DNA of 64,000 bases from Streptomyces sp. GS7 (GTDB lineage Bacteria; Actinomycetota; Actinomycetes; Streptomycetales; Streptomycetaceae), in contig NZ_CP047146.1 of assembly GCF_009834125.1 (NCBI RefSeq), forward strand, positions 3,403,501 to 3,467,500, written 5' to 3'. The translations under genes and the position numbers were made by a program. The notes beneath the pieces are model-generated. The model was not told the DNA's origin, did no database searches, and worked only from the letters and a program-made list of their open reading frames with translations. How positions within the stretch are numbered: the first letter of the stretch is position 1; each line of letters begins with the position of its first letter. This document shows, piece after piece, positions 90 through 18,885 of the stretch.

Positions 90-1118
90 GTGAAGGCACT
101 GGTCAAGCAGAAGGCGGAGCCGGGACTCTGGCTCACGGACGTGCCGGAGCCCGCGATCGGCGCGGGGGACGTGCTGATCAAGGTGCTGCGCACCGGCATC
201 TGCGGCACGGACCTGCACATCCGGTCGTGGGACGGCTGGGCCCAGCAGTCCATCAACGCCCCACTGACAATCGGCCACGAATTCGTCGGCGAGGTCGTCG
301 AGACCGGCCGGGACGTGGCCGAGATACACGCCGGGGACCTGGTCAGCGGCGAGGGCCATCTGGTCTGCGGCAAGTGCCGCAACTGCCTGGCCGGGCGCCG
401 CCACCTGTGCCGGGCCACGGTCGGGCTCGGCGTCGGCCGGGACGGCGCGTTCGCCGAGTACGTGGCGCTGCCGGCGGCCAACGTGTGGGTGCACCGGGTC
501 CCGGTCGACCTCGACATCGCCGCGGTCTTCGACCCCTTCGGCAACGCCGTGCACACCGCGCTCTCCTTCCCCCTGGTCGGCGAGGACGTACTGATCACCG
601 GGGCCGGGCCGATCGGGATCATGGCGGCGGCGGTCGCCCGGCACGCCGGCGCCCGCAACGTGATGATCACCGACGTCAGCGAGCAGCGCCTCGAACTGGC
701 CCGGAAGGTCGGCGTCAGCCTCGCCCTCGACGTCGGGCGGTCCTCGATCGCGGACGGCCAGCGCCAACTGGGCCTGCGCGAGGGCTTCGACGTCGGCCTG
801 GAGATGTCCGGCCGCCCCGAGGCGCTGCGCGACATGATCGGCAACATGACGCACGGCGGCCGGATCGCCGTACTGGGCCTGCCGTCCCAGGAGTTCCCGG
901 TCGACTGGTCCCGGATCGTCACCTCCATGATCACCATCAAGGGCATCTACGGCCGGGAGATGTTCGAGACCTGGTACGCGATGTCGGTCCTGCTCGAAGG
1001 CGGCCTCGACCTCGCACCGGTGATCACCGGCCGCTATCCGTACCAGGAGTTCGACGCCGCCTTCGCCGAAGCGGCCGGCGGCCAGGGCGGCAAGGTCATC
1101 CTCGACTGGGCCGCCTGA
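90..1118 (+). CDS. tdh: L-threonine 3-dehydrogenase
   Basis: Zinc-dependent medium-chain dehydrogenase that oxidises L-threonine to 2-amino-3-ketobutyrate with NAD+, in the cytosol. The 342 aa match the family length. Visible motifs are the catalytic zinc ligands in GICGTDLH and GHEFVGEV, the four-cysteine structural zinc loop [15 protein letters not shown], and a Rossmann glycine motif [10 protein letters not shown]. The start is GTG behind GGGAG. kbl follows 41 nt downstream on the same strand, so both enzymes of the threonine-to-glycine route are probably co-transcribed. The function is secure from motifs plus the neighbour; substrate preference itself is inferred from the pairing. Confidence 0.95.
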
Positions 1119-1159
1119 TCCCCGGCCCGGTCCCCCCAACGCACCCCTAAGGAAGGCCC

Positions 1160-2353
<1,194 letters not shown>

Positions 2354-2404
2354 AGCGACCGGTCCGCAAGGGAACAACCGGCCGCACCCTGCGAGACTGG
2401 AAGC

Positions 2405-3313
2405 ATGATCGAAGCACGCCGGCTGCACATCCTCCGCGCGCTGGCCGACCACCGCACGGTCACCGCCGCGGCAGCCGCGCTCTATCTCACGCCCTCGGCG
2501 GTCTCCCAGCAGTTGGCGGCCCTGGAGCAGGAGACCGGCCACCGCCTTGTGGAGCGCGGCGCCCGCGGTGTCCGGCTGACCGCCGCGGGCGACATCCTGC
2601 TGGGCCACGCCAACGCCGTCCTGGCCCAGCTGGAGCGCGCAGAGTCGGAGCTCGCCGCCTATGAGGCAGGGGAGGCGGGCACGGTGACGGTGGCGGCGTT
2701 CGCGACCGGCATCGGCCTGGTGCTCGCCCCGGCGATCACCGAGCTGGCCCGGTCCGCGCCCGGCATCCGCGTCCGCGTCCAGGACGCCGAGGGCGACGCC
2801 AGCCTGCTGATGGTGCTGGACCGGCAGGTCGATGTCGCGGTCGCGGTGGAGTACCGCGGCGCGCCGGGCGAGGACGATCCGCGGCTGACCCGTGTCCCGC
2901 TGTACGCCGAGCCGTTCGACGCGGTGCTGTCGCCCGGCCACCCGCTGGCCGGCGCGGAGCGGGTGCCGCTCGCCGGTCTGGCCAAGGACCCGTGGATCGG
3001 CCCGTACTCCGGCAACCCCTGCCATGACGTGGTCGTCCTGGCCTGCGAGTACGCCGGTTTCGAGCCGCGCCTGGAGCATTCCTCGGACGACTTCCGGGCG
3101 GTGGTGGCGCTCGCCTCCGCGGGGGCAGGCGTCGCGCTGGTGCCGCGCTCGGCGCTGCGCGGGATGGATCTGACGGATGCGGTGGTCCGCCCGGTCGACG
3201 GGGTCGCCCCCACCCGCCGGGTCTTCGCCGCCGTACGCCGCGGCGCCGAGGACCACCCGCTGCTGCGCCCGGTGCTCACGGCGCTGCGGACGGCGGCGGC
3301 CGCCCAGGGCTGA
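2405..3313 (+). CDS. LysR-family transcriptional regulator
   Basis: DNA-binding regulator of 302 aa. The N-terminal winged helix-turn-helix (residues 1-62) has the characteristic stretch AAAAALYLTPSAVSQQLAAL. A periplasmic-binding-like effector domain follows (about 90-295), including the late motif AGAGVALVPRSAL. It lies directly after kbl on the same strand, so it may sense a threonine- or glycine-related metabolite, but that is inference; Streptomyces LysR genes of this subtype are common next to unrelated genes. It converges with the PHP gene, the two stops being 13 nt apart. Confidence 0.85.
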   Translation: MIEARRLHILRALADHRTVTAAAAALYLTPSAVSQQLAALEQETGHRLVERGARGVRLTAAGDILLGHANAVLAQLERAESELAAYEAGEAGTVTVAAFATGIGLVLAPAITELARSAPGIRVRVQDAEGDASLLMVLDRQVDVAVAVEYRGAPGEDDPRLTRVPLYAEPFDAVLSPGHPLAGAERVPLAGLAKDPWIGPYSGNPCHDVVVLACEYAGFEPRLEHSSDDFRAVVALASAGAGVALVPRSALRGMDLTDAVVRPVDGVAPTRRVFAAVRRGAEDHPLLRPVLTALRTAAAAQG

Positions 3314-3326
3314 CCGGGCGGGGCGG

Positions 3327-4403
3327 TCAGCCGGCGGCCCGGTGCGGGGTCCGGCCGGTGCGGGTCCAGGTTGCCAGTTGGCGGGCCGTCCAGGTGGTGA
3401 TGACCCGCTCCGTCGGCACGCCGCACTCCTCGGCGCGGGCGCATCCGTAGATCTGCCAGTCCAGCTGGCCGGGCGCGTGCGCGTCGCTGTCGATGGAGAA
3501 GAGGGTACCGGCGTCGAGGGCCTGCCGCAGCAGCCGGCGCGGCGGATCGAACCGGTCCGGGCGGCAGTTGATCTCCACGGCCGTGCGGTGCTCGGCGCAC
3601 GCCGCGAAGACCTCCCCGGCGTCGAACTCCGACTCCGGGCGCGGCTTGCCGGTGATCTGCCGCCCGGTGCAGTGGCCCAACACGTCCACCAGAGGGTTGT
3701 GTACGGCCGCCAGCATCCGGCGGGTCATCGGGCCCTTCGGCATCCGCAGCTTGGAGTGGACCGAGGCGACCACCACGTCGAGTGCGTCCAGCAGCTCCGG
3801 CTCCTGGTCGAGCGAGCCGTCGTCGAGGATGTCGCACTCGATGCCGGTCAGCAGCCGGAACGGCGCCAGTTGCGCGTTCACCACCGCCACCAGCGCCAGT
3901 TGCAGCCGCAGCCGCTCGGCGGTCAGCCCGCGGGCCACGGTGAGGCGGGGGGAGTGGTCGGTCAGCACGCACCAGTCGTGGCCGAGGTCGCGGGCGGCCC
4001 TGGCCATCGCCTCCACGGGGCTGCCGCCGTCCGACCAGTCCGAGTGCAGATGGCAGTCCCCGCGCAGCGCCCGCAACAGCGCCCGCCCCTGCTCCCCTTC
4101 GACCAGCGGTCCGCCGGCCTCCTCCGCCAGCCGCGCCAGGTAGGCGGGCTGCCGCCCCGCGAGGGCCTCTTCGACGACCCGGGTGGTTTTCGGGCCGAGC
4201 CCTTTGAGGCGGCCCAGCGTCCCGTTCGCCGCCCGCTCGCGCAGTTCCTCCGCGGGCAGTTCGCCGACGACCGACGCCGCCGTACGGAACGCCTGCACCC
4301 GGTAGGTGACCGCGCCCTGCCGCTCCAGCAGGAACGCGATCCGCTCCAGCGCCGCCACGGGATCCACCTCCCCACCGTGCCCCAGCGGGGGACCGGCTGC
4401 CAC
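3327..4403 (-). CDS. PHP-domain protein with N-terminal helix-hairpin-helix region (PolX-type C-terminal half)
   Basis: Probable metal-dependent phosphoesterase of 358 aa. Residues about 15-100 resemble the HhH/8-kDa region of family X polymerases (RLKGLGPKTTRVVEEALAG). Residues about 115-335 are a PHP domain with metal ligands in CHLHSDWSDG, TDHSPR, GIECDI, SVHS, LGHCTGR and DSDAHAPGQLDW. No polymerase palm is present, so this is not a full PolX; similar proteins are annotated as PHP-domain or histidinol-phosphatase-like. The start is GTG with AGGGGAAG upstream. A DNA-repair or nucleotide role is plausible but unproven. Confidence 0.8.
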   Translation of the reverse strand: MAAGPPLGHGGEVDPVAALERIAFLLERQGAVTYRVQAFRTAASVVGELPAEELRERAANGTLGRLKGLGPKTTRVVEEALAGRQPAYLARLAEEAGGPLVEGEQGRALLRALRGDCHLHSDWSDGGSPVEAMARAARDLGHDWCVLTDHSPRLTVARGLTAERLRLQLALVAVVNAQLAPFRLLTGIECDILDDGSLDQEPELLDALDVVVASVHSKLRMPKGPMTRRMLAAVHNPLVDVLGHCTGRQITGKPRPESEFDAGEVFAACAEHRTAVEINCRPDRFDPPRRLLRQALDAGTLFSIDSDAHAPGQLDWQIYGCARAEECGVPTERVITTWTARQLATWTRTGRTPHRAAG

Positions 4404-5042
4404 CGCGGGCGGTGCCGCGAACTTCCCCTATCGCAGTTATGCGAATATGTCCGTTCTCTGGATAGTCGATCCGTTTCCACGGCAATGACGTATGGATCGG
4501 GGGATCATTTCGGTCATTACCACAGGGGAAGTCGCAGAGAATCATGTGCGGTTAAAGCCTCTGCAACATCCCGGGCGAGTGCCCGAAACACTCGCCGGAC
4601 TTCCCGTCGGGGTGCCGCGCTGTGGAGTCGTAAAGATCGGTGGCCTTCGGAAAATCTGCACACCGAATGCGCAGTCGGCACACGCCCGATGGTTTTGTGC
4701 CACAGCCCTGACCTGCGGTTCAGCGGTTTGGTGCGGGAATGTCCAGTTCGCTACGGAGCGCAACGACGGGTCTACGGAAAAGAAACCGCAGGAGATGTGA
4801 AGAAGCTGCCACCAACCCATGGACGCATGTACACGTCCGGTAATTCGGTGGGGCGTTGGCGTCCAGATGGGCGGTTGTCCGATTAGCAGGGCAACGGGCC
4901 TACATGCTTTGATCCTTCGCACCGCGGGAGTCACGGGGTTTCCCGAATTCGGGACTCCGACTACCGTTGCCGCGGCCGGGTCAACCCCACCGGACGGCCC
5001 GTTCGCGTGCTTTTTCTTGATATTGATCCGAAGGGAAACATC
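4404..5042. other. Long relatively AT-rich intergenic region upstream of the peptide gene
   Basis: About 640 bases with no convincing gene, and visibly lower GC than the flanks. Short open frames (for example 4492-4800) lack Streptomyces codon bias. It must hold the start signals of the PHP gene (leftward) and of the peptide/exporter operon (rightward). A nested dyad lies at 4927-4958. The ribosome-binding sequence GAAGGGA sits just before the ATG at 5043. Confidence 0.6.
4927..4958. promoter_or_regulatory. Nested inverted repeat upstream of the GG-leader peptide gene
   Basis: Outer arms GGAGTC (4927-4932) and GACTCC (4953-4958) enclose a perfect 12-base palindrome CCCGAATTCGGG (4942-4953). 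The centre is about 95 nt before the peptide start. It could be an operator or an RNA hairpin in the leader. Its role is unknown. Confidence 0.35.
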
Positions 5043-5258
5043 ATGAACAACGCCCAGGTTCAGACCCAGGAAATCTCCGACGCCGACCTGGACAACGTGT
5101 CCGGTGGCCTCGTCGGCGGCGTGCTGAGCACCGTCACCACCACCACCGACTCCGTCCCGCAGGTCGCGGGTGCGCTCACCACCGTCACCAGCCTGGTCCA
5201 GGGCGCCAGCGGCGTGGACCTGAACGGCACCGTCGGTGGCCTGACCGCTGGTCTCTGA
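5043..5258 (+). CDS. Double-glycine leader peptide precursor, Cys-free core, cargo of the NHLM-type exporter
   Basis: Small precursor of 71 aa. An acidic leader of 22 residues ends in ISDADLDNVSGG, the classic double-glycine processing site. The 49-residue core that follows is rich in Val, Thr, Gly, Leu and Ser (10 Thr). It has no Cys, Lys, Arg, His or aromatic residue and a net charge of about -2. A second Gly-Gly lies four residues into the core. The ATG at 5043 is chosen because GAAGGGA sits 5 nt upstream; an upstream in-frame ATG at 5007 has no such site. Such leaders are often labelled type A2 lantipeptide, but with no Cys no lanthionine can form and no LanM/LanB is encoded nearby. Downstream genes encode the matching adaptor and C39 peptidase-transporter. 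The activity of the mature peptide is unknown. Confidence 0.8.
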   Translation: MNNAQVQTQEISDADLDNVSGGLVGGVLSTVTTTTDSVPQVAGALTTVTSLVQGASGVDLNGTVGGLTAGL

Positions 5259-5263
5259 GCCCC

Positions 5264-5282
5264 TGTGCCGCTGAGCGGCACA
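5264..5282 (+). terminator. Hairpin after the peptide gene (partial terminator or mRNA stabiliser)
   Basis: TGTGCCGC and GCGGCACA form a perfect 8-bp stem around TGA, six bases after the peptide stop codon. No T-run follows. In peptide operons such hairpins usually limit read-through so that precursor mRNA exceeds exporter mRNA; that role is inferred here. Confidence 0.5.
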
Positions 5283-5356
5283 TCCGGCATCGAGCGGAGG
5301 TAACGGCACGTCGGCGCCCCCTCCTTGCCGACATGCCGGGCCGAGTGCCCCGGACA

Positions 5357-5374
5357 GCCCGGTTCCGACCGGGC
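5357..5374 (+). terminator. Second hairpin between peptide gene and exporter genes
   Basis: GCCCGGT and ACCGGGC form a 7-bp stem around TCCG, midway in the 215-base gap before the HlyD-like gene. With the hairpin at 5264-5282 it suggests attenuation or RNA processing in this gap. Confidence 0.4.
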
Positions 5375-5473
5375 CCCGGGGCGCCTGGCCGTTCGTCGCC
5401 CGGACATACCGTCGGCCGTCTGCGCCGTGCCATGATGTCCCGTACCACATCGTGCAGTTGAGGGAAGAGTGAC

Positions 5474-6280
5474 GTGCAGTTCCGCCAGCAGGCCCTTTCC
5501 AAGCTGCAGTCGCCCGAGGAGCTCGACCTGCCGGTGCGCTTCGCCCGGCCGCAGGGCTGGCTCGTCCTGATCGTCACGGTCCTCGTCATGGCCGGCGCCG
5601 CCGTCTGGGCGTTCGCCGGCACCGTCTCCTCGACCCTCGGCGCCCCGGCGATCCTCACCCACGGCCAGGGCAGCTACGTACTCCAGAGCCCCGTCGCCGG
5701 CCAGGTGACCTCGGTGCTCGCCGAGGAAGGCAAGCAGGTCGCCGCCAACGCGCCCGTCGTGAAGGTCCGTACGGCGCAGGGCACCACCACCGTCGTCCGC
5801 GCCATCGCCGCCGGACGGCTGACGACCCTGTCCGCCACCATCGGCTCGGTCGTCACGACCGGCGCGGACCTCGCCTCCGTCGAGAAGACCGCCGGCGCCG
5901 GGGACCGGCTGACCGCGACCCTCTACGTCCCCGCCGACAGCGCCGCCACCCTCCCCCTCGGCGCCGCCGTCGACCTCAGCGTCCAGTCCGCGCCGACCCA
6001 GCAGTACGGCGTACTGCGCGGCAAGATCGCGGCCATCGGCCGCAACACCCAGACCCGCCAGCGGATTTCCGCCTTCCTCGGCAGCGACCAGCTCGGCCAG
6101 CAGTTCTCCCAGCACGGCCAGCCGGTCGCGGTCCTGGTGACGCTCGACACCGCGCACACCGCCTCCGGCTACGCCTGGTCCACCTCGGACGGCCCGCCCT
6201 TCGCGCTGGACTCGATGACCCAGGCCACCGGCGCCGTCCACCTGGCCGCGCAGCACCCGATCGATTGGCTGCTCCCGTGA
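5474..6280 (+). CDS. HlyD-like adaptor, NHLM bacteriocin system secretion protein
   Basis: Membrane-fusion adaptor (268 aa) expected to sit with the ABC exporter and guide the peptide across the envelope. A single membrane segment lies near residues 30-52 (WLVLIVTVLVMAGAAVWAFA), followed by lipoyl-like halves (SYVLQSPVAGQVTSVLAEEG) and a beta-barrel region. The start is GTG with GGAAGAG upstream. It overlaps the next gene by 4 nt (GTGA), which implies translational coupling. It is shorter than Gram-negative HlyD proteins, as expected for a bacterium without a classical outer membrane. Confidence 0.85.
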   Translation: MQFRQQALSKLQSPEELDLPVRFARPQGWLVLIVTVLVMAGAAVWAFAGTVSSTLGAPAILTHGQGSYVLQSPVAGQVTSVLAEEGKQVAANAPVVKVRTAQGTTTVVRAIAAGRLTTLSATIGSVVTTGADLASVEKTAGAGDRLTATLYVPADSAATLPLGAAVDLSVQSAPTQQYGVLRGKIAAIGRNTQTRQRISAFLGSDQLGQQFSQHGQPVAVLVTLDTAHTASGYAWSTSDGPPFALDSMTQATGAVHLAAQHPIDWLLP

Positions 6281-8565
6281 CCGCCCCGAACGACTCCGCG
6301 GCACCCCCGCAGCACCTGCCGCCGGCCGGCCGCGGCCGGCACCGCCCCGAGCCCGCGCCGGCCGCCCGCCGCCGCAAGGGGCCGCCGCCCACCGCCAAGA
6401 CCGGGAAGGCCGGGAAGTCCGTCCGCACGCCCACCGTGCTCCAGATGGAGGCCGTGGAGTGCGGCGCCGCCTCCCTGGCCATGGTGCTCGCCCACTACGG
6501 GCGCCACGTCCCCCTGGAGGAGCTGCGAATAGCCTGCGGCGTCTCCCGCGACGGCTCGCGCGCCAGCAACCTGCTCAAGGCCGCCCGCAGTTACGGCCTC
6601 CAGGCCAAGGGCATGCAGATGGAACCGGCCGCGCTCGCCGAGGTCTCGGCGCCGGCCATCCTCTTCTGGGAGTTCAACCACTACGTCGTCTACGACGGCA
6701 TGGGCCGCCGCCTCGGCCGCCGCGGTGTGCACATCAACGACCCCGACAAGGGCCGCCGCTTCGTGGCCATGGAGGACTTCGACACCAGCTTCACCGGTGT
6801 CGCCCTGGTCTTCGAGCCCACCGACGCCTTCCGCAAGGGGGGCCGCAAGCCCAGCGTGCTCAGCGCCCTGCCCGCCCGGCTGCGCGGCACCACCGGCACC
6901 CTGCTGGCCGCGCTGCTCGCCAGCCTGTTGCTCGTCGGCGTCGGCGCCGCGGTACCCGCGCTCAGCCGTACGTACATCGACATGTTCCTGATCGGCAACC
7001 AGACCTCGCTGCTGGGGCCGCTGTTCGCCGCGATGACCGCGATGGTGGCGCTCACCGCCGTCCTGACCGGCCTGCAACAGGCCAACCTGCTGCGCGGCCG
7101 GATCATCTCCTCCACCCTCAGCAGCGCCCGCTTCCTGCGCCACCTCCTGCGGCTGCCGGTCACCTTCTTCGCCCAGCGCTCGCCCGCCGATCTCGTCCAA
7201 CGGCTCCAGTCCAACGACGCGGTGGCCGAGACCCTCGCCCGGGACCTCGCCGCGGCAGCCGTGGACGGCGTCGTCGTGGTCCTCTACGCGCTGCTGCTGT
7301 GGACGTACGACCCCCAACTCACCGTCATCGGCGTACTGATCGCGCTGCTCAACGTCGTCGCGATGCGGATCGTCGTCCGGCTGCGCGCCACTCACGTCCA
7401 GAAGCTGCGCGCCGACACCGCCCGGCTGACCAACACCTCGTACACCGGCCTCCAGCTCATCGAGACCATGAAGGCCACCGGCGGCGAGAGCGGCTACTTC
7501 CGGCGCTGGGCCGGCCAGCACGCCAGCACCCTGGAGGAACAGCAGCGGCTCGGCGTTCCCAGCGCCTGGCTGGCGGTCGTCGCCCCCACCCTCGCCACCC
7601 TCAACAGCGCCCTGATCCTGTGGATCGGCGGGCTGCGCGCGGTCGAGGGACATATCTCCATCGGCCTGCTGGTCGCCTTCCAGGCCCTGGTGACGCGCTT
7701 CACCGCGCCGGTCACCCGGCTCAACGGCGTCGCCGGCCGCATACAGGACTTCGCCGCCGACGTCGCCCGCCTCAAGGACGTCGAGAGCTTCCCCGCCGAC
7801 ACCCTGTACTCCCGCCCGGAGGCGGACGCCGGCACCCGCCGCCTCAAAGGCCATGTGACGCTGGAGGACATCACCTTCGGCTACAGCCCGCTCGACAAAC
7901 CGCTGCTCAGCGGCTTCTCCCTGGCCGTCGGCCCCGGCCGCCAGGTCGCCCTGGTCGGCGGCTCCGGCAGCGGCAAGTCCACCGTCTCCCGGCTGATCTC
8001 CGGCCTCTACGCCCCCTGGGAAGGCACCATCCGCATCGACGGACAGCGCCTGGAGGACATCCCCCGCAGCGTGCTGGCCGCCTCGGTCTCCTTCGTCGAC
8101 CAGGACATCTTCCTCTTCGAGGGCACCGTCCGGGACAACGTCGCCCTCTGGGACCCGTCGATCCCGGACGACGCGGTCATCGCAGCCCTCCAGGACGCCG
8201 CCCTCTACGACGACGTCATCGCCCGCCGCCCCGACGGCATCCACAGCCGCGTCGAACAGGACGGCCGCAACTTCTCCGGCGGCCAGCGGCAGCGCCTGGA
8301 AATCGCCCGCGCACTGGTACGGCGCCCCAGCATCCTGGTCCTCGACGAGGTCACCAGCGCCCTGGACGCCGAGACCGAGGCGGTCATCATGGACAACCTG
8401 CGGCGGCGCGGCTGCGCCTGCGTCGTCATCGCCCACCGGCTGAGCACCGTCCGCGACAGCGACGAGATCGTGGTCCTCGACCACGGCGTGGTCGTCGAAC
8501 GCGGCCGGCACCAGGACCTGGTCGCCGCCGGAGGCGCGTACGCCGAGCTGGTCAAGGAGCACTGA
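6277..8565 (+). CDS. NHLM-type ABC transporter with N-terminal C39 peptidase
   Basis: Exporter-protease of 762 aa that should cut the precursor after Gly-Gly and export the core. The C39 peptidase (about residues 45-185) has its catalytic Cys in VECGAASLAMVLAHYG (about C62), His in FNHYVVYD (about H135) and Asp in INDPDKG (about D155). A six-helix membrane domain spans about 200-500. The nucleotide-binding domain has Walker A GGSGSGKST, signature FSGGQRQR and Walker B SILVLDEVTSALD. The GTG start overlapping the upstream stop is preferred over an in-frame TTG at 6265. All catalytic residues look intact. Confidence 0.92.
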   Translation: MTAPNDSAAPPQHLPPAGRGRHRPEPAPAARRRKGPPPTAKTGKAGKSVRTPTVLQMEAVECGAASLAMVLAHYGRHVPLEELRIACGVSRDGSRASNLLKAARSYGLQAKGMQMEPAALAEVSAPAILFWEFNHYVVYDGMGRRLGRRGVHINDPDKGRRFVAMEDFDTSFTGVALVFEPTDAFRKGGRKPSVLSALPARLRGTTGTLLAALLASLLLVGVGAAVPALSRTYIDMFLIGNQTSLLGPLFAAMTAMVALTAVLTGLQQANLLRGRIISSTLSSARFLRHLLRLPVTFFAQRSPADLVQRLQSNDAVAETLARDLAAAAVDGVVVVLYALLLWTYDPQLTVIGVLIALLNVVAMRIVVRLRATHVQKLRADTARLTNTSYTGLQLIETMKATGGESGYFRRWAGQHASTLEEQQRLGVPSAWLAVVAPTLATLNSALILWIGGLRAVEGHISIGLLVAFQALVTRFTAPVTRLNGVAGRIQDFAADVARLKDVESFPADTLYSRPEADAGTRRLKGHVTLEDITFGYSPLDKPLLSGFSLAVGPGRQVALVGGSGSGKSTVSRLISGLYAPWEGTIRIDGQRLEDIPRSVLAASVSFVDQDIFLFEGTVRDNVALWDPSIPDDAVIAALQDAALYDDVIARRPDGIHSRVEQDGRNFSGGQRQRLEIARALVRRPSILVLDEVTSALDAETEAVIMDNLRRRGCACVVIAHRLSTVRDSDEIVVLDHGVVVERGRHQDLVAAGGAYAELVKEH

Positions 8566-8566
8566 C

Positions 8567-11455
8567 GTGGCATCCGTACACCCGTCCCCGGGCACGGGAC
8601 CCGGCGCGGGATCCACCGGCGGACCGGGCGAGAGCGACGCGGTGACGTACGCCCTGGGCGGCCTCGGCACCCCCGTCGACTGCACCGGGCTGCGCAACGT
8701 CCCCCTGGAAGGACCGCACGTCCTGTGGCTGGTCACCGGCGGCTTCCTGGACCTCTTCGCCGTCGACGCCGCCCAGGAGGGCCACTGGCACTTCCTCGGC
8801 CGCCTCGAAGCCGGCGCCCTGCTGCTCGGCCCCGTCGAAGGCCCCCAGCACACCCTCTTCGGCCGCCCCTCCCAGGACTGCGGGCTGCGCCGGATCGCGC
8901 TGCGCGAACTGCCCCGCCCCGACTACGCCGGCTACGGCGAGCAGGGCGAGTACGCGTACGGCTACGACGACACCTACGGCGGGCAGGCACCCTCCGCGCT
9001 GGAGCACGCCTTCGCGCTCGGCACCGCCCGCAGCCTGGGCGTGCTGTTCGAGGCACCGCTGGACGGCAGGCCCACCGACGAGGCGGTGGCCGACGACGAC
9101 ATCCTCTGGATGCCGGTACCGCCCGGCAGCGTCCAGTACGGCGCCTCCTACAGCGCCGAGGCCGCCGCCGACCTGCTCGTCGACCCCGCGCTGTGGCAGC
9201 GCATGGTCAACCAGCAGTACCGGTTGCTTTCCGCCGTCGACCGCTGGATCGAGCAGCTGGAGCGCGCCCACGAGGACCGCACCGCCGCCGGCATCAAGGC
9301 GGGCGAGGCCGTCCGCGAACGCGCCGACCAGGCGCTGCTCGCCTCCATCGGCAAGGACCGCTCGGGACGCTCCGCCGCGGGCCGCGACCGGGCCGGCGAC
9401 GACGCCACCTTCGCGGTCTGCCGCCAGGTCGCCGCGGCGGCCGGCATCACCCTGACCGAGCCCCCCAAGGGCGCCGCGGCCAACGACCGGATCAGCCCCG
9501 TCGAACGCATCGCGGTCAGCTCCCGGATCCGCACCCGCGCCGTACGCCTCGACGGGCGCTGGTGGCGCACCGACGCCGGCCCCCTGGTCGGCATGCGCGC
9601 CAAGTCCGGCGCGCCCGTGGCGCTGCTGTGGCGCCGCGGGGGCTACGAGGCGGTCAACCCCGCCTCCGGCCTGCGGATCCGCATCGGCAAGGACAACGCC
9701 GACGAGTTCGAGCCGCGCGCGGTGATGTTCTACCGGCCGCTGCCGGACCGCCCGATGAGCATGTGGCGGCTGATGCGCTTCAGCCTGCGCGGCACCCGCA
9801 TGGACGTGCGTAATCTCGCTCTCGGCGGCCTGGTGACGGTCGGCCTCGGCGCGCTCGTCCCGATCGCCACCGGCAGGGTCCTCGGCGTCTACGTACCGGC
9901 CGCCGAGCGCAGCCTGATCGTCCAGGTCGCCCTCGCCGTCATCGTCTCCGGCGTGGTGTCCGCCGCCTTCATGCTCCTCCAGAACCTCACCGTGCTGCGC
10001 ATGGAGGGCCGCATCGAGAGCACCCTGCAGCCCGCCGTCTGGGACCGGCTGCTGCGCCTTCCGACGAAGTTCTTCGCCGAGCGCTCCACCGGCGAACTGG
10101 CCAGCGCCGCGATGGGCATCAGCGCCATCCGCCGGGTGCTTGCCGGCGTCGGGCCGGTCGCGGTGCAGGCCACCACGGTCGGCGCCATGAACCTCGTCCT
10201 GCTGCTCCTCTACAGCGTCCCGCTCGCCCTCGCCGCGATCGCCATGCTGCTGGTGATCGGCGCGGTGTTCCTGGTCATGGGGCTGTGGGAACTGCGCTGG
10301 CAGCGCCGGCTGGTGACGCTCGGCAACAAGCTCAACAACCAGGCGTTCCAGACCCTGCGCGGCCTGCCCAAGCTGCGGGTCGCGGCGGCCGAGAGCTTCG
10401 CGTACGCGGCCTGGGCCCGCGAGTTCGCCCGCTCCCGCGAACTCCAGCAGAAGGCCGGCCGCATCAAGAACCTCACCACCGTCCTCAACGCGGTCTACCT
10501 CCCCCTCTGCTCCCTGGTCTTCTTCCTGCTGCTGGCCGGCCCCGCCCGCGGCAGCATGTCGGCCGGCTCCTTCCTGACGTTCAACACCTCGGTGACCATG
10601 CTGCTCACCTCGGTCACCCAGATCACCGGCGCGTTCGTCTCGACCGCCGCCGCCCTCCCGATGTTCGAGCAGATCAAGCCGGTGCTGGACGAGGCTCCGG
10701 AGGTCCGCGGCGGCAGCGCCCAGCCCGGCCTCCTCTCCGGCGGCATCGCGGCGCGCAAGCTCTCCTTCCGCTACACCGACGACGGCCCCCTGGTCCTCGA
10801 CGACGTCTCCCTCCAGGTCGAACCCGGCGAGTTCGTCGCCATCGTCGGCCCCAGCGGCTGTGGCAAGTCGACCCTGCTCCGCCTCCTCATCGGCTTCGAC
10901 AAGCCCTCCTCGGGCAGCGTCCTCTACGACGGCCAGGACCTCGCCGCGCTCGACCAGGCGGCGGTGCGCCGGCAGTGCGGTGTGGTCCTGCAGAACGCCC
11001 AGCCGCTCACCGGCTCCCTCCTCGACTGCATCAGCGGCACCGAGGCGTTCACCCAGGAAGAGGTCTGGGCGGCGGCCGAAATGGCGGGCCTGGCCGAGGA
11101 CATCAAGCGGATGCCGATGGGGCTGCACACCATGATCTCCGGTGGTGGCGCGATATCCGGCGGCCAGCGCCAGCGGCTGATGATCGCCCAGGCACTGGTC
11201 CGCCGCCCCCGCATCCTCTTCTTCGACGAGGCCACCAGCGCCCTCGACAACGAGACCCAGCGCATCGTCATCGACAGCACCCGCAAGCTCAGCGCCAGCC
11301 GCCTGGTGATCGCCCACCGGCTCTCCACCGTCATGGACGCCGACCGCGTCATCGTCATGGCCGACGGCCGGGTCGTCGAGCAGGGCGCCCCGGCGGACCT
11401 GCTCGCGGACACCGGCGGCCGGCTGCACGATCTGGTGCGGCGCCAGCTGGCGTGA
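8567..11455 (+). CDS. NHLM-type ABC transporter ATP-binding protein (no peptidase)
   Basis: Large ABC protein of 962 aa, the usual second transporter of NHLM secretion systems. About 400 N-terminal residues form a non-peptidase region unique to the family. A membrane domain (about 410-690) and a nucleotide-binding domain follow, with Walker A VGPSGCGKST, signature ISGGQRQRL and Walker B ILFFDEATSALD. It starts one base after the preceding stop and probably forms a heterodimer with that transporter. The N-terminal region could bind cargo or a partner; its function is not known. Confidence 0.88.
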   Translation: MASVHPSPGTGPGAGSTGGPGESDAVTYALGGLGTPVDCTGLRNVPLEGPHVLWLVTGGFLDLFAVDAAQEGHWHFLGRLEAGALLLGPVEGPQHTLFGRPSQDCGLRRIALRELPRPDYAGYGEQGEYAYGYDDTYGGQAPSALEHAFALGTARSLGVLFEAPLDGRPTDEAVADDDILWMPVPPGSVQYGASYSAEAAADLLVDPALWQRMVNQQYRLLSAVDRWIEQLERAHEDRTAAGIKAGEAVRERADQALLASIGKDRSGRSAAGRDRAGDDATFAVCRQVAAAAGITLTEPPKGAAANDRISPVERIAVSSRIRTRAVRLDGRWWRTDAGPLVGMRAKSGAPVALLWRRGGYEAVNPASGLRIRIGKDNADEFEPRAVMFYRPLPDRPMSMWRLMRFSLRGTRMDVRNLALGGLVTVGLGALVPIATGRVLGVYVPAAERSLIVQVALAVIVSGVVSAAFMLLQNLTVLRMEGRIESTLQPAVWDRLLRLPTKFFAERSTGELASAAMGISAIRRVLAGVGPVAVQATTVGAMNLVLLLLYSVPLALAAIAMLLVIGAVFLVMGLWELRWQRRLVTLGNKLNNQAFQTLRGLPKLRVAAAESFAYAAWAREFARSRELQQKAGRIKNLTTVLNAVYLPLCSLVFFLLLAGPARGSMSAGSFLTFNTSVTMLLTSVTQITGAFVSTAAALPMFEQIKPVLDEAPEVRGGSAQPGLLSGGIAARKLSFRYTDDGPLVLDDVSLQVEPGEFVAIVGPSGCGKSTLLRLLIGFDKPSSGSVLYDGQDLAALDQAAVRRQCGVVLQNAQPLTGSLLDCISGTEAFTQEEVWAAAEMAGLAEDIKRMPMGLHTMISGGGAISGGQRQRLMIAQALVRRPRILFFDEATSALDNETQRIVIDSTRKLSASRLVIAHRLSTVMDADRVIVMADGRVVEQGAPADLLADTGGRLHDLVRRQLA

Positions 11456-11544
11456 GGGGCAGGCCTTCCCGTAATCCCCCCGAACCGGCGCATAGGGTGC
11501 ACGGCAGTGCCTGCGCGGAGTGCCGGCGGCGGATGGAGGACGAG

Positions 11545-12012
11545 ATGCCCACGGTCAAGCACCTGTTCGATGCGATGCCCCCCGACCGGCGCCGGCGGCT
11601 GACCGAAACCGCCCAGGAGGTGTCCTTCCCCCGCGCCACCCGCGTCTTCGAGGAGGGCCGCAGGGCCGACCGCTTCTGGATCATCCGCAGCGGCCGGGTC
11701 GCCCTCGACCAGCGCGTCCCCGGCCGGCAGGCCGCTGTCGTGGAAACCCTCGGCCGAGACGAACTCCTCGGCTGGTCCTGGCTGTTCCCGCCCTACCTCT
11801 GGCACCTCGGAGCGGAGACCGTCAGCGCCGTGGAGGCCGTCGAGTTCGACGCCACCGTCGTCCGCGCCCTGTGCGAGTCGGACCCGGTGCTGGGCCGGGC
11901 GATGTACCTCTACGTCGCCGAGACCGTCGCCCAACGGCTGCACGGCACCCGCGTGCGGCTGCTGGAACTCTACGGGCCCCAGAGCGGCGGGACGGAGCAG
12001 ATGGAGCTCTAG
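11545..12012 (+). CDS. Cyclic-nucleotide-binding-domain protein without DNA-binding domain
   Basis: Protein of 155 aa made almost entirely of one Crp-like beta-roll (RATRVFEEGRRADRFWIIRS, then GRDELLGWSWLFPPYLWHLG), ending shortly after a helix where a Crp/Fnr regulator would continue into a helix-turn-helix. The ATG at 11545 has GGAGGA five bases upstream, so the short form is chosen over the ATG at 11533. It follows the transporter gene by 89 nt on the same strand, so it is probably part of the secretion locus. It may sense a nucleotide or a membrane signal and act by protein contact; that is inference. Confidence 0.75.
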   Translation: MPTVKHLFDAMPPDRRRRLTETAQEVSFPRATRVFEEGRRADRFWIIRSGRVALDQRVPGRQAAVVETLGRDELLGWSWLFPPYLWHLGAETVSAVEAVEFDATVVRALCESDPVLGRAMYLYVAETVAQRLHGTRVRLLELYGPQSGGTEQMEL

Positions 12013-12149
12013 GTGCGCTGTCCCGGCAGAGAGCCCAGGAGCCGGGAACCGGACGCGTGATCCGGCCGGCTACCTGTGCCGGGCCGCGAGCGTGCCCCCG
12101 CGGCCGGCCGGCCGACCGGCCGGTGCGTTGCAGGTAGGGGAGAAGGCCC

Positions 12150-12346
12150 ATGCGCCCTGGGAAGTCGTGCGGTGTCGCGATGCCGGTCGCGCTGACCGCC
12201 ACCGCGTGCGGTGGCGGCGGTGCCGGCGGTACGGGAAGCGGGAGCGGCGCCTCCGGGAGCGGCGGTTCCGGCTTCCCGGGAAGGCCGCCGACTGCAAGGG
12301 CGCCGAGACCACCTTCACCGCTCCACCGCGCAGGATCGTGACGATG
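12150..12346 (+). pseudogene. N-terminal remnant of an iron-siderophore ABC substrate-binding lipoprotein
   Basis: From an ATG at 12150 the frame gives a lipoprotein signal with a lipobox-like LTATACGG and a Gly/Ser linker. One base-shifted frame then continues with DCKGAETTFTAPPRRIVTM, the start of the periplasmic domain of FecB/siderophore-binding proteins. The match stops at about 12346, where a P450 remnant on the other strand begins. It is frameshifted and truncated, so non-functional. Confidence 0.65.
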
Positions 12347-12360
12347 CCGCGTTGCCGCGC

Positions 12361-12562
12361 GAGTGGTGCCTGCCCAGGCGGGGATCGGTCAGTGCCTGCT
12401 GCGCGGCGTCGTACCCCGTGACCGGCCAGGCGCACACCCCGCTGGGGAAAACCGCACCCGGTGCACCGGGCCGCGCGCCCGCAACGCGGCGTAGAGGGGA
12501 TACGGGTCACGCTTGCAGTCGGCGCCGTAGAGGTCGGTGGGGTGGGGGCGGGTGGCCTGGTC
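12361..12562 (-). pseudogene. N-terminal remnant of a cytochrome P450
   Basis: Reading leftward, DLYGADCKRDPYPLYAALRA and GPVHRVRF, then after a one-base frameshift PSGVCAWPVTGYDAAQQALT and DPRLG, match the first 60 or so residues of an actinobacterial P450. No in-frame start, no I-helix and no haem cysteine remain. The fragment ends at about 12361, directly beside the lipoprotein remnant. Confidence 0.7.
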
Positions 12563-12890: not shown

Positions 12891-13226
12891 ATGACCACCC
12901 CCGCGACGTCCCCCGCGTCACCCCACCGCGAGCAGCGGACGGCCTCCCCCGCCGCCGCCCGCACACCGGCCCGTCCCCCGTTCCCCGCGCGGTTCCTGCC
13001 CGCCCGTCCGGTCGTCGGCTTCCTCGCCCTCCTGGCGCTGCTGTTCGCCCTCTCGTACGCGGTGGGAACCGCCGTCGGCCCCGTGGCACCCGGTCTGCAC
13101 CCCGCCGACCGCCCCCGCACCGGCACCACCGAACCCACCGGCGACGGAGGCATGGGCGGTATGCCCGGCATGGGCTCCATGGGAGCCCCGTCCCCCGGCC
13201 CGGTGACCGCGGGAGACCTGCGATGA
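12891..13226 (+). CDS. Small membrane protein with Met-rich C-terminus, first gene of copper operon
   Basis: A 111-aa protein with one membrane helix around residues 42-62 (VVGFLALLALLFALSYAVG) and a C-terminal tail containing GGMGGMPGMGSMGAP, a spacing of methionines typical of Cu(I) binding. The stop overlaps the ATPase start (ATGA), so translation is coupled. A copper-delivery or sensing role is inferred from the Met-rich tail and neighbour; no family was recognised. Confidence 0.75.
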   Translation: MTTPATSPASPHREQRTASPAAARTPARPPFPARFLPARPVVGFLALLALLFALSYAVGTAVGPVAPGLHPADRPRTGTTEPTGDGGMGGMPGMGSMGAPSPGPVTAGDLR

Positions 13227-15607
13227 CACCGGACCCCCACCCCCGCCGGACCCCGCCCGCACCACCCCGACCCAGCGCCGCCGACGCCGAATCCACCACC
13301 TCGACCCTCACCGTCGGGGGCATGACCTGCGCCGCCTGCGTGGGGCGGGTCGAGAAGAAGCTCGGGCGGATGGACGGCGTGACCGCCTCGGTGAACCTGG
13401 CGACGGGGCGGGCACGGATCACTCACCCCGCGGCGGTCTCCGTAGGCGAACTCATCGCCACCGTGGAGGCCGCCGGGTTCACGGCACGGCTTCCCGACCC
13501 CGTCGCACCGGAGCCCGACGGCACCCGGCGGCCGGCCGAGGACACCGGCCGCCACGACGACGGATCGCGCGCCGAGCGGCAGCGGCTGCTGCTGACCGCC
13601 CTGCTGTCCGTGCCGGTACTGGTGCTGTCGATGGTGCCGGGCTGGCAGTTCCGCAACTGGCAGTGGCTGTGCTTCGTGCTCGCCGCACCGGTCGCCGTAT
13701 GGGGCGCCGCGCCCTTCCACCTCCGCGCACTGCGGGGCCTGCGCCACGGCGCCGCGACCATGGACACCCTGGTCTCCCTCGGCGTCGCCGCGTCGTTCAC
13801 CTGGTCCACCTACGCGCTCTTCCTCGGCGGAGCCGGCGCGCCCGGCATGACGATGCCGTTCAGCCTGCTGCCCGGCGCCGGCGACGGGACCGCGCACCTG
13901 TATCTCGAAGCGGCCGTCGGCGTACCGCTGTTCGTCCTGGCCGGACGCCGGATGGAAGCCGGGGCCCGGCGGGGCACCGGCGCGGCGCTCCGTTCGCTGG
14001 CCGAACTCGCCGCGAAGGAGGTGGCGGTACGCGGCGAGGACGGCGTCGAGCGCCGTATCCCGGCCGATCGGCTGCGGGTCGGGGACCGGTTCCTGGTACG
14101 GCCGGGGGAGCGGGTCGCCACGGACGGCACCGTCGTCGCCGGCGGCTCGGCACTGGACCTCTCGCTGATCAGCGGTGAGAGCCGTCCGGTCGAGGTCGGG
14201 CCGGGCTCCGAGGTGGTCGGTGGCGCGGTCAACTCCGGCGGTCTGCTGGAAGTCCGGGCGGACGCCGTGGGCGGCGACACCCAACTCGCCAGGATCACCC
14301 GGCTCGTCGAGGACGCCCAGACCGGCAAGACCCGGGCGCAGCGCCTCGCCGACGCGGTGGCCGCGGTCTTCGTGCCCGCCGTACTGACCGTCTCGGTCAC
14401 CGTCCTGGGCTTCTGGCTCGGCGCCGGGGCCGATCCGCAGGCGGCCGTCACCGCGGCGGTGGCGGTACTCGTCGTCGCCTGCCCGTGTGCGCTGGGCCTG
14501 GCCACCCCGACCGCGCTGCTGGCCGCCACCGGACGCGGCGCCCAGCTCGGAATCCTGGTCAGCGGCCCGCGCGCCCTGGAACGACTGCGCCGGATCGACA
14601 CCGTCGTCCTCGACAAGACCGGCACCCTCACCACGGGGCGGATGACGGTCGGCGCCCTGACACCGCGGGCCGGCGGCCTCGGTCCGGAGGAAGCCGTCCG
14701 GCTCGCCGCCACCGTCGAGCAGGGCTCCGAGCACCCCGTGGCGCGCGCCATCACCGCGTACGCCCGCGACCGCACCGCGGACCGCCCCCTGCAACCGGCC
14801 GCCTCCGTACGCGACTTCACCGCCACCCCCGGCCTCGGCGTACGCGGTACGGCGGACGGGCACGAGGTGACGGTCGTCCGGCCGCCGGACGACCCCGGCG
14901 ACCTCCCGGCTCCGCTGCCGGACGCGGTGCGGGCGGCCGAGACCGCCGGCCACACCGCGGTCCTCGTCACCGTCGACGGAGTCCCGGAAGCGGTCATCGC
15001 CGTCGGCGACACCCTGCGCCCCGACGGGTACCGCGCGGTCGACCATCTGCGCCGCCTGGGCCTGCGGCCCGTCCTGGCCACCGGCGACCGCGCGGCCACC
15101 GCCCGCACGGTCGCCGGAGCGCTCGCCATCACCGAGGTCCACGCCCAGGCCGGCCCCCAGGACAAGGCAGCGCTGGTCACGACCCTCAAGGAGCAGGGCG
15201 GCCGGGTCGCCGTGGTCGGCGACGGCGTCAACGACGCGGCGGCCCTCGCGCTCGCCGACCTCGGCATCGCCATGGGCAGCGGCACCGACGCGGCGATCGG
15301 CGCCGCGGACGTGACCCTCGTACGCGAGGACCTCCAGGCCATCGCCGACGCCGTACGCCTCGCCCGCCGCACGCTCGGCACCATCCGCGGCAACCTCCTC
15401 TGGGCCTTCGGCTACAACCTGGTCACCGTGCCGCTCGCCGCGGTCGGTCTGCTCAACCCGATGCTCGCGGCAGCCGCGATGTCCGCCAGCTCCCTGCTCG
15501 TCGTCGGCAACAGCCTGCGCCTGTGCGCCTGGCGGCCCCCGGGCGCCGCACGCTCCGCCCGGCGCACCGACTCACCTCGCAACAAGGCCACTTGGGGGAC
15601 CTCATGA
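13223..15607 (+). CDS. copA: Copper-translocating P-type ATPase
   Basis: Heavy-metal P1B ATPase (794 aa) that exports Cu(I) across the cytoplasmic membrane. The HMA domain has GMTCAAC at residues 33-39. The actuator loop shows LISGES, the transmembrane metal site is CPCALG (about C420/C422), the phosphorylated Asp is in DKTGTLT (about D464), and later motifs are SEHPVA and GDGVNDAAAL. The length is normal. It is coupled by ATGA overlaps both to the upstream Met-rich protein and to the downstream PCuAC-like gene, forming a three-gene operon. Confidence 0.92.
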   Translation: MTPDPHPRRTPPAPPRPSAADAESTTSTLTVGGMTCAACVGRVEKKLGRMDGVTASVNLATGRARITHPAAVSVGELIATVEAAGFTARLPDPVAPEPDGTRRPAEDTGRHDDGSRAERQRLLLTALLSVPVLVLSMVPGWQFRNWQWLCFVLAAPVAVWGAAPFHLRALRGLRHGAATMDTLVSLGVAASFTWSTYALFLGGAGAPGMTMPFSLLPGAGDGTAHLYLEAAVGVPLFVLAGRRMEAGARRGTGAALRSLAELAAKEVAVRGEDGVERRIPADRLRVGDRFLVRPGERVATDGTVVAGGSALDLSLISGESRPVEVGPGSEVVGGAVNSGGLLEVRADAVGGDTQLARITRLVEDAQTGKTRAQRLADAVAAVFVPAVLTVSVTVLGFWLGAGADPQAAVTAAVAVLVVACPCALGLATPTALLAATGRGAQLGILVSGPRALERLRRIDTVVLDKTGTLTTGRMTVGALTPRAGGLGPEEAVRLAATVEQGSEHPVARAITAYARDRTADRPLQPAASVRDFTATPGLGVRGTADGHEVTVVRPPDDPGDLPAPLPDAVRAAETAGHTAVLVTVDGVPEAVIAVGDTLRPDGYRAVDHLRRLGLRPVLATGDRAATARTVAGALAITEVHAQAGPQDKAALVTTLKEQGGRVAVVGDGVNDAAALALADLGIAMGSGTDAAIGAADVTLVREDLQAIADAVRLARRTLGTIRGNLLWAFGYNLVTVPLAAVGLLNPMLAAAAMSASSLLVVGNSLRLCAWRPPGAARSARRTDSPRNKATWGTS

Positions 15608-16077
15608 ACCGCCCGCGCCTGGTGGCGGTCGCCGTACCGCTCCTCACCTGCCTGGCGACCCTCGGTACGCTCACGGCCTGGGCCGCGACCGGTAACGCGG
15701 GCACCCCCGCCCGGCTGACCGCCGGCGAGGGGCGCGTGCTGATCCCCGCCGGCGACGACGCCACCGCCGCGTTCTTCACCCTGCGCAACACCGGAACCGC
15801 GGACGACGTCCTGACCTCGGTCACCGGTCCGGCGGGCCACCGGACCATGCTCAGCCGTGACGTCCCCGCCGGCCGCAACGCCCGCACCATGGCGATGGTC
15901 CCCTCCGCGACCGTCCCGGCCGGCGGATCGCTGGCCATGACGCCCGCGACCCTGGACGTCATGATCAGCCCGCCGCCCCGGCTCACCCCCGGCGACCGCC
16001 TCACCTTCACCTTTCACTTCCGCGACAGCCCCCCGCTGACCGTGCGGGCCCGTGCGGTTCGCCCCGGCGAGCAGTAG
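15604..16077 (+). CDS. PCu(A)C-like periplasmic copper chaperone
   Basis: Exported 157-aa protein. An N-terminal signal/anchor (LVAVAVPLLTCLATLGTLTA) is followed by the DUF461/PCuAC fold with AAFFTLRNTGTADDVL, GHRTMLSRDV, MAMVP and LAMTPATLDVM, which carry the His/Met ligands expected for extracellular Cu(I) binding. The last His-x-Met pair of classic PCuAC proteins is not clearly conserved. The ATG overlaps the ATPase stop. It likely takes copper outside the membrane for storage or cuproenzyme assembly. Confidence 0.82.
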   Translation: MNRPRLVAVAVPLLTCLATLGTLTAWAATGNAGTPARLTAGEGRVLIPAGDDATAAFFTLRNTGTADDVLTSVTGPAGHRTMLSRDVPAGRNARTMAMVPSATVPAGGSLAMTPATLDVMISPPPRLTPGDRLTFTFHFRDSPPLTVRARAVRPGEQ

Positions 16078-16140
16078 GCGGCTCGCCCCGGCGATGCGGT
16101 AGGCGCTTCGCCCCGGCGAGCGGGAGGAGGAGCAGAAGGC

Positions 16141-16184
16141 GGAGCGGCAGGCGCTCCCGATCACACGGGAGCGCCTGCCGCTCC
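16141..16184. terminator. Perfect 19-bp hairpin between copper operon and sigma gene
   Basis: The arms at 16141-16159 and 16166-16184 are exact reverse complements (right arm CGGGAGCGCCTGCCGCTCC) around a 6-base loop. It lies between convergent genes, so it likely terminates both directions. There is no T-run, as is usual in high-GC actinomycetes. Confidence 0.8.
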
Positions 16185-16272
16185 GGGCTCCGAAGAACCG
16201 GTCGTCGCCGGGAAGTTCACGGACGGGCCACCGCCCGACCGTGAACCCGCCGCGGCGCCGGGCCGCGGACCG

Positions 16273-16992
16273 TCAGGCCACGGCGCCGGCGAGATCGCGC
16301 GGCTGCCGGTCACCCGGCCCCGGTCTTCCGAACGCCACGCTCCCCGGGCGGGAGGCCCGAAGCGCGCCCCCGCCGTCCGCGCCCCGCCGTTCGGTCTCCG
16401 CCTCGGTCCCGGCCGCGCTCCCCGCCTCGGCGTCCGCCAGCAGCGCGATCAGCGTCTCCCGGGCACGAGCCACCCGGGACCGCACCGTTCCCACCGGGCA
16501 GCCCATCACCCCGGCGGCCGCCGCGTACGGGAGCCCCAGTTGCTGCGTCAGCACGAACGCCTCCCGCCGCTGCGGGGTCAGCGCCGCGAGCAGTTCGGCC
16601 AGCGCGATCCCCTCGTCGAAGCCCGGAACGCCGCGCGGCTGCACCCGTTCCGCCGCCGTCTGCCAGTCGTCGGTCGCGGCCAGCCGCGGCCGTACCGCAT
16701 GGGAGCGGATGCGATCCGCCACCACCCGCCGGGCGATCGTCAGCAGCCAGGTCCGCGCCGACGACCGGCCCTCGAACCGCGGCAGAGCGCGCAACGCCCG
16801 TACATAGGTGTCCTGCACCAGGTCGTCGGCCGCCTGCGCCTCCCCGCTGAGGTGCGTCACATAGCGCCGCACATCGAGCTGCGTGGCCTTCACGAACTGC
16901 TCGACGGCCCGCTCGTCACCGGTGCGGGCGGCCAGCGCCCAGCCGGTCACCGACTCGTCGTCCCGCACACCGTCCCGTGCTCCGTCACGCAT
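16273..16992 (-). CDS. ECF RNA polymerase sigma factor
   Basis: Extracytoplasmic-function sigma factor of 239 aa. Region 2 contains DDLVQDTYVRALRALPRFEG and SARTWLLTIARRVVADRIRS. Region 4 contains LTPQRREAFVLTQQLGLPYA and a helix-turn-helix ending GTVRSRVARARETL. A 45-residue low-complexity tail follows. The start is placed at the ATG at 16992; a GTG 14 codons later is also possible. It is divergent from a zinc-finger anti-sigma gene across only about 50 bases, and lies beside copper genes, so control by copper or thiol stress is plausible. Confidence 0.88.
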   Translation of the reverse strand: MRDGARDGVRDDESVTGWALAARTGDERAVEQFVKATQLDVRRYVTHLSGEAQAADDLVQDTYVRALRALPRFEGRSSARTWLLTIARRVVADRIRSHAVRPRLAATDDWQTAAERVQPRGVPGFDEGIALAELLAALTPQRREAFVLTQQLGLPYAAAAGVMGCPVGTVRSRVARARETLIALLADAEAGSAAGTEAETERRGADGGGALRASRPGSVAFGRPGPGDRQPRDLAGAVA

Positions 16993-17041
16993 ACCGGGAC
17001 CGCCCCTCGCCGCGCATGAAGGCGTGATGGAGGATGGGCGC

Positions 17042-17434: not shown

Positions 17435-17516
17435 CCGACCGGCACACCCACCGGCCGGTCCCTCGGCGGGTGCCCGGTACCCGCTCTCACCCACCGCTGG
17501 GCCGGAAGGCACAACC

Positions 17517-17534
17517 GATACGGATACGGATACG
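17517..17534 (+). repeat. Three tandem copies of GATACG
   Basis: Exact hexamer triplication in the gap after the anti-sigma gene. Probably a slippage microsatellite; no function assigned. Confidence 0.7.
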
Positions 17535-18867: not shown

Positions 18868-18885
18868 GTATCGGCGGGGCGCCCG

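Follow-up and report, generated by a model that had tools for sequence, protein, structure and literature searches.

The closest described relative of the system treated here is the operon SCO0753–SCO0756 of Streptomyces coelicolor, published in 2019 with the remark that its peptide is without cysteine (PMC6629963). The same operon, a double-glycine (GG) leader precursor followed by an exporter of the NHLM type, lies in the 64,000-nucleotide stretch of the Streptomyces sp. GS7 chromosome analyzed in this work (hereafter the window; the host genome is a single contig of 9.07 Mb). Both versions have the gene order peptide–HlyD–two ATP-binding cassette (ABC) proteins and a hydrophobic Cys-free peptide, reported to be conserved in many Streptomyces; they differ in that the S. 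coelicolor peptide has 77 residues, and dispersed precursors, a shared promoter, and a leader family go unmentioned in the accessible parts of that paper (PMC6629963). Expression data exist as well: no gene is more strongly overexpressed than sco0753 in a two-component mutant with dispersed growth, in which sco0754–0756 are also up (PMC6629963), and SCO0753 is up in an aor1 mutant (PMC5733086). The sequence-only reading of the window had treated the nature of the peptide as unknown, a view that has to be given up, since SCO0753–SCO0756 had already been described and neither the operon nor its Cys-free peptide is new. What appears to be new, as judged by genome comparison, is that the precursor belongs to a dispersed leader family of Streptomyces, of which we met no description at title or abstract level in the mainly open literature.

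Multi-copy precursors with conserved leaders and the same transporter families are known outside this case (PMC2887384). The NHLP and N11P precursors share with the present system the transporter families TIGR03794, TIGR03796, and TIGR03797, cleavage at GG, conservation ending at the GG, a copy number of one to 12 (NHLP) per genome, and a phylogenetic profile linking precursor to transporter, but they have longer, nitrile-hydratase- or Nif11-like leaders (69 residues in N11P, Table 3 of that paper), and the clusters shown for them adjoin TOMM or LanM enzymes (PMC2887384, as far as accessible). The Streptomyces family, in contrast, has a leader of ~20–25 residues, no enzyme, and mostly Cys-free anionic cores, and no NCBIfam model of a nitrile-hydratase-like or Nif11-like leader was matched by the precursor in the window up to E 0.1. 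The ComA and PCAT-type transporters share the arrangement of C39 peptidase, transmembrane domain, and nucleotide-binding domain over nearly the full length of the first ABC protein (ABC1), of which residues 54–760 align to the peptidase-containing bacteriocin transporter 4ry2 and residues 56–760 to ComA 8hf7, as well as the processing of a GG leader; the Streptomyces operon adds an HlyD-like partner, a second ABC protein (ABC2), and, across the genus, a large number of divergent substrate types. SapB and the chaplins are also small peptides of the hyphal surface, hydrophobic and secreted, the former modified by RamC and the latter leaving the cell via Sec, whereas the peptides considered here carry a GG leader.

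One exporter and a dispersed family of precursors

We consider it rather probable that the locus serves a secretion regulon with a single exporter, the products of which would be anionic, hydrophobic peptides, probably without modification, that act on the surface of the hyphae. In the predicted mechanism, the locus would be the hub of the regulon: its C39-ABC exporter would recognize one conserved leader, T-x-E-I-S-D-x-D/E-L-D-x-V/I-S/A-G-G, cut after the GG, and export the core; HlyD and ABC2 would be partners of the exporter. The precursor at the locus (the resident precursor) would be one substrate, and the others would be encoded by orphan genes scattered over the chromosome, which would have kept the leader and, mostly, the promoter as their cores diversified. 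The cores would probably leave the cell without modification and may act on the hyphae as surface-active or coat-type peptides.

A search of the window genome with the resident precursor yielded four further precursors, at 0.069, 3.957, 5.031, and 8.239 Mb (0.5–4.8 Mb from the window locus), whose cores differ widely (e.g., PGLP repeats and GHHGHH repeats). Being built from the five precursors, the leader model (A1) necessarily returns them, at E 1.2e-23 to 7e-29; the next match stands at 0.0127. Homologues of the resident precursor are present in many Streptomyces; their distribution was surveyed in a set of 247 Streptomyces genomes, each at least 95% complete, with the TIGR03796 cut-off as the threshold for ABC1 and E up to 0.001 for a leader-model match. 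ABC1 was over its cut-off in 189 genomes and the leader was matched in 186, both being found in 185, the exporter alone in 4, the precursor alone in 1, and neither in 57 (the 58 genomes below the ABC1 cut-off were assigned by E-values, in agreement with the overall tally). The refuting outcome set for the sequence-only reading, a peptide gene unaccompanied by the exporter in most relatives, did not occur: an exporter above the cut-off is present in 185 of the 186 genomes that carry a precursor, and in the last one (G173) the ABC1 gene is split into two pieces (L147 and L140; G173:C2:9709804-9711947) beside an intact local precursor. That genome has two dispersed precursors elsewhere, and its split gene may reflect either natural loss of the exporter or a sequencing fault. 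Among 296 sampled genomes of the same class, 25 contained the leader, all of them Streptomyces, and a scan of named genomes, of whose 211 loci the best 80 were kept, also found it in Actinacidiphila and Kitasatospora records.

The 186 genomes hold 291 precursors (one in 103 genomes, two in 67, three in 12, four in 2, and five in 2). Placement, counted over the 83 genomes with two or more, puts 84 of their 188 precursors beside the exporter, one per genome except two in G138, and 104 elsewhere; 44 of the dispersed ones share the exporter's contig, 204 kb to 9.2 Mb off. Tandem precursor pairs occur at L126 and L207, the latter being the pair beside the exporter of G138. Genome comparison argues strongly that the dispersed precursors are handled by this exporter, because the surveyed ones occur only in genomes with an exporter gene and no other C39-ABC exporter exists in the window genome, where C39 is otherwise matched only by a frame of 214 aa that lacks ABC domains and lies next to a D-Ala-D-Ala ligase-like gene.

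Double-glycine leaders are short, with hydrophobic residues at −12, −7, and −4 and GG at −2/−1. The 127 precursors that were read (25 local and 102 of the 104 dispersed, leaving out G242:C7:20518 and G245:C1:4586874) all have I/L/M/V at −12, L/M at −7, V/I at −4, and G at −1, with G at −2 in 126; because the members were collected by leader similarity, this fit is descriptive, and independent for the window's own precursor only. The most conserved leader positions include L at −7 (126), D at −6 (123), D at −10 (122), E at −13 (118), and V/I at −4 (127). Between local and dispersed precursors, mean identity is 0.67 over the last 18 leader residues and 0.26 over the cores, as compared with 0.24 for shuffled cores (the L207 precursors being pooled with the dispersed ones, here and in the hydrophobicity analysis below). 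The ratio of nonsynonymous to synonymous substitution (dN/dS), which is freer of the leader-search bias and is a rough estimate in groups of 5 to 16 sequences, is lower for the leader than for the core in four groups (0.30 vs 0.79, 0.53 vs 1.07, 0.26 vs 0.74, and 0.39 vs 1.39) and about equal in a fifth (0.70 vs 0.69). The lower leader values would match the constraint imposed by a shared processing partner.

Most precursors also share a putative promoter, consisting of a GTGAAG box (or variant) followed 40–115 nt further on by TGnT(T/C)nnAT(C/G), which we take to resemble an extended −10 element. The pair stands upstream of 22 of the 25 local and 73 of the 102 dispersed precursors (95/127), as against none of 317 other gene upstreams drawn from part of the fetched regions only, 11 of which have the box by itself; the form GTGnTTnnATC occurs at 91/127 precursors and again at 0/317 controls. 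Among 750 random windows from the same loci, which may overlap precursor upstreams, GTGCTTTGAT was found in 6 and TGTGAAG in 4. At the resident precursor the pair lies at −246..−128 from the ATG, and its strict form (88–112 nt spacing) has its single match in the window genome there. In the twelve other genomes in which both kinds were read, the pair is present at 11/12 precursors of the local kind and 11/14 of the dispersed kind. Common descent of gene and promoter would look the same as co-regulation in these counts, which are uncorrected for kinship. Within 60 nt past the stop codon, a stem of at least 8 pairs, G-U included, is found at 19/25 local and 53/102 dispersed precursors. By analogy with S. 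coelicolor, a hairpin ahead of hlyD could keep expression of the exporter below that of the peptide, the reported log2 changes being 6.3 for the peptide and about 4.3 for the exporter genes (PMC6629963).

The operon and the properties of the cores

The coordinates, motifs, and models (Table 1), together with the order precursor–HlyD–ABC1–ABC2 kept in 20/20 sampled exporter regions, confirm the earlier assignment of a GG precursor, an HlyD-like adaptor, an intact C39 transporter, and a second NHLM ABC protein. The CNB-domain protein, which had been counted as part of the same set, has to be removed from it: its gene occurs in 1/20 sampled exporter regions and 7/80 named loci, some of them incomplete, so that it is ruled out as a core component and is better regarded as a clade-specific gene outside the core system. 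That the transporter family is a known one also holds, ABC1 (cut-off 853.3 bits) and ABC2 scoring above the curated NHLM cut-offs; HlyD, a short version, has TIGR03794 as its best model and falls below the cut-off of 156.2 bits. ABC1 retains intact Walker A, signature, and Walker B motifs and has Q56, C62, H135, and D155, presumably the catalytic residues of the C39 peptidase; the Q/C/H motif is present in 20/20 exporter regions, the D being demanded by just one of the two patterns used. GTGA is shared by the overlapping HlyD and ABC1 frames, and 1 nt separates ABC1 from ABC2.

Table 1 Features of the exporter locus, numbered by position in the window
Feature	Position	Strand	Sequence or model match
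Upstream regulatory region, GTGAAG box and extended −10-like element ~110 nt further 3'	4797..4914	+	TGCTTTGATC
GG-leader precursor, 71 aa, leader MNNAQVQTQEISDADLDNVSGG, 49-aa core	5043..5258	+	PF04604 21.9 bits (cut-off 21.7), residues 3–32
8-bp hairpin right 3' of the precursor stop, 5' of hlyD	5264..5282	+	
HlyD-like adaptor, 268 aa	5474..6280	+	PF13437 42.6 bits; TIGR03794 135.9 bits, below cut-off
ABC1, C39 peptidase-permease-ATPase, 762 aa	6277..8565	+	TIGR03796 1017.7 bits; PF03412 121.3 bits
ABC2, second NHLM ABC permease/ATPase, 962 aa, no C39 match	8567..11455	+	TIGR03797 884.6 bits; Pfam scan
CNB-domain protein, accessory, in some relatives only	11533..12012	+	PF00027 42.4 bits

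The resident precursor has its GG at residues 21–22, giving a leader of 22 residues, and a composition count bears out the core as described from the letters: T10 V9 G9 L7 S4 A4 D2 Q2 P1 N1, without C, K, R, H, F, Y, or W, with an isoelectric point (pI) of 4.05 and a computed monoisotopic mass of 4554.43 when unmodified. None of 2000 shuffles reaches the hydrophobicity power observed for this core at 105 or 110 degrees, and the core is predicted to form an anionic amphipathic helix. A search for relatives in the Protein Data Bank gave one non-significant match (E 0.25).

Across the family, the 25 local cores are 47–62 aa long, contain Cys in no case, and have a mean net charge of −2.56 with none positive; the 102 dispersed cores have a mean net charge of −2.28 with one positive, and Trp is present in none of the 127. 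After reduction to 60% identity, the local cores show a hydrophobicity peak at 100–110 degrees (z 7.8 and 9.5, 9 cores) and the mixed remainder of the dispersed cores one at 160–170 degrees (z 8.2 and 11.4, 34 cores including L207), the spacing of a beta-strand alternation, and on this pattern many, not all, dispersed cores read as beta-type. A TT(S/G/M)(L/V/I)-like tail, common to dispersed cores of several types (L162, L167, L187, L196, L222, L231, and others), ends 24 of 91 scored cores. Where a single Cys occurs in a dispersed core, it often stands before A/G and a D/E.

With weak to moderate confidence, the composition of the cores, the predicted amphipathic helix, and the link to dispersed growth in S. 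coelicolor suggest that the peptides act at the hyphal surface. Several observations weigh against the single-exporter regulon as a whole. Export of the dispersed peptides by this exporter rests on genome comparison, and the surface role on composition together with a correlation in the expression data of another species. Of the dispersed precursors, 60/104 lie on contigs other than that of the exporter, so that the distances given above cover the remaining 44 only. Four genomes have lower-scoring exporters (861–943 bits) and no detected precursor, and the Fisher p of 5.6e-50 for co-occurrence ignores kinship and is too small because the surveyed genomes are related. Since all precursors were found via the leader, the contrast between leader and core is partly built in. 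In the window genome itself, only p1 (the local precursor) and p5 (one of the four dispersed) have the promoter pair, p2 and p3 having the box only and p4 neither element. As for the cores, a single Cys is found in 20/102 dispersed ones, type D (n=9) lacks the 160–170 degree peak, and weak peaks at other angles, 150 and 180 degrees, are shown by types B and C (n=2 each). The AlphaFold model of the resident precursor consists of helices at low confidence (predicted local distance difference test, pLDDT, 58.9), for which reason it was rejected as a query for fold searches. The exporters of the four precursor-less genomes (L131–L134 in G181, G113, G036, and G026) possibly belong to a second NHLM system of the genus.

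If one exporter serves all these precursors, a single deletion would remove a secreted peptide class in about three quarters of the surveyed Streptomyces (189/247), a role in pelleting, aerial growth, or competition would be directly testable, and the retention of orphan precursors without a biosynthetic cluster would be explained. More tentatively, and with less confidence than we place in the regulon, the family may constitute a genus-wide secretome in which one C39 exporter would serve dispersed, co-regulated, diversifying anionic peptides that are not modified and take at least two kinds of fold (a helix in the resident, beta alternation in the dispersed ones), together forming a modular hyphal coat or matrix and a third route beside the chaplins (Sec) and SapB (lanthionine).

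Alternative roles and the question of modification

An alternative that we regard as unlikely is that the peptides are class II-type bacteriocins without modification, immunity being conferred by a gene that is unlinked or very small. The pairing of a C39-ABC exporter with a GG leader is the arrangement of class II bacteriocins, and the variable cores, with dN/dS up to 1.39, would fit competition. The peptide has also been called bacteriocin-like in the accessible text of two papers (PMC6629963, PMC5733086). However, 1 of 127 cores is net cationic, and not the resident one, which is not the net positive amphiphilic core typical of cationic class II bacteriocins; the mean charges are negative for local and dispersed cores alike, Trp is lacking throughout, and no gene beyond precursor, HlyD, ABC1, and ABC2 occurs in more than 13 of the 20 exporter regions. 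A tiny immunity gene could escape this count, frames under 70 aa or lacking a GC3 signal having been passed over in gene calling.

A still less likely role for the peptides is that of pheromones, secreted as signals and detected by a two-component system, e.g., the relative of SCO5282/5283. GG peptides with ComAB-type exporters are frequently pheromones, but the local cores, at 47–62 aa, and the great diversity of cores within one genome speak against signalling, as does the same want of a further gene in more than 13/20 exporter regions; a receptor elsewhere in the genome was not searched for. In favor of signalling, expression of sco0753 depends on SCO5282/5283 (PMC6629963).

Returning to the regulon of probably unmodified peptides, we hold with moderate confidence that the cores are not modified. 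No lanthipeptide, radical SAM, or YcaO enzyme is encoded among the window genes scanned at 90–4403 and 12891–26592, and no linked tailoring enzyme is conserved across the 20 exporter regions, in keeping with the earlier statement that no modification enzyme adjoins the operon. The Cys-free, non-cationic resident core is likewise as unlike lanthipeptides and cationic bacteriocins as had been proposed. NCBI names many homologues type A2 lantipeptide, a label contradicted by the sequences: the local cores have no Cys, and the match of the resident precursor to PF04604 (L_biotic_typeA), its one lanthipeptide feature, a core Cys and an adjoining LanM being absent, covers the leader and the first core residues only. 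An orphan LanM does exist in the window genome (G000:C1:3667128-3669731, minus strand, L025/L349; TIGR03897 362.2 bits), with no obvious GG-Cys precursor beside it in 19.5 kb, and its presence makes modification in trans possible there; the genome also has a LanB/LanC pair and two RamC-like proteins. Across the genus, at a threshold of E up to 1e-40, LanM was found in 48/186 precursor-bearing genomes; modification in trans is thus not a property of the family, and LanM as an unlinked partner of the precursors is unsupported. The least likely of the alternatives by a little, a ribosomally synthesized peptide modified in trans by an unlinked enzyme such as the orphan LanM at 3.667 Mb through Ser/Thr dehydration, could draw on these enzymes, on the Pfam call of the leader, barely over its cut-off, and on a methyltransferase gene ~0.9 kb upstream of p2, but LanM is undetected in 138/186 precursor genomes and relatively commoner in those without a precursor (26/61), and Cys is present in 0/25 local cores; the genus-wide survey of unlinked enzymes covered LanM only, not YcaO or radical SAM.

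Genes neighboring the precursors

In the 20 exporter regions, the next commonest neighbor groups after the four operon genes occur in 13 and 10 regions, upstream (GAF-domain and trypsin-like proteins in L092), and Ppx-type genes follow ABC2 in 6/20. A Ppx-type annotation is also given for SCO0757 (PMC6629963). A neighbor gene common to all dispersed precursors was not found at 23 dispersed and 80 further loci, the latter including two exporter loci, L182 and L207. Among the 23, two neighbor groups span core types, protein-kinase-like genes (L129, L008, and L120) and P-type ATPases (L009 and L011), both common families. Among the 80, sharing is confined to small groups, the widest of which covers eight loci (L163, L168, L186, L195, L198, L199, L205, and L232) with two core types and consists of a ~110-aa gene (SDLALPL..., no Pfam match) convergent with and close to the precursor. 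As neighbors are shared only in such small groups, no tailoring enzyme appears to accompany the family as a whole.

The other window genes scanned encode a LysR regulator, a PHP-domain protein, an aminotransferase, a zinc-type dehydrogenase, a heavy-metal P-type ATPase, MarR, P450, TetR, and Band-7 proteins. The P450 gene, at 20385–21575, lies 8 kb past the CNB gene, and no tie to the exporter locus was found; Rfam elements gave no match in 4400–12400 up to E 1. P-type ATPase genes stand near several precursors (window 13223–15607, L009, L011, and L180), probably by chance, the family being a common one.

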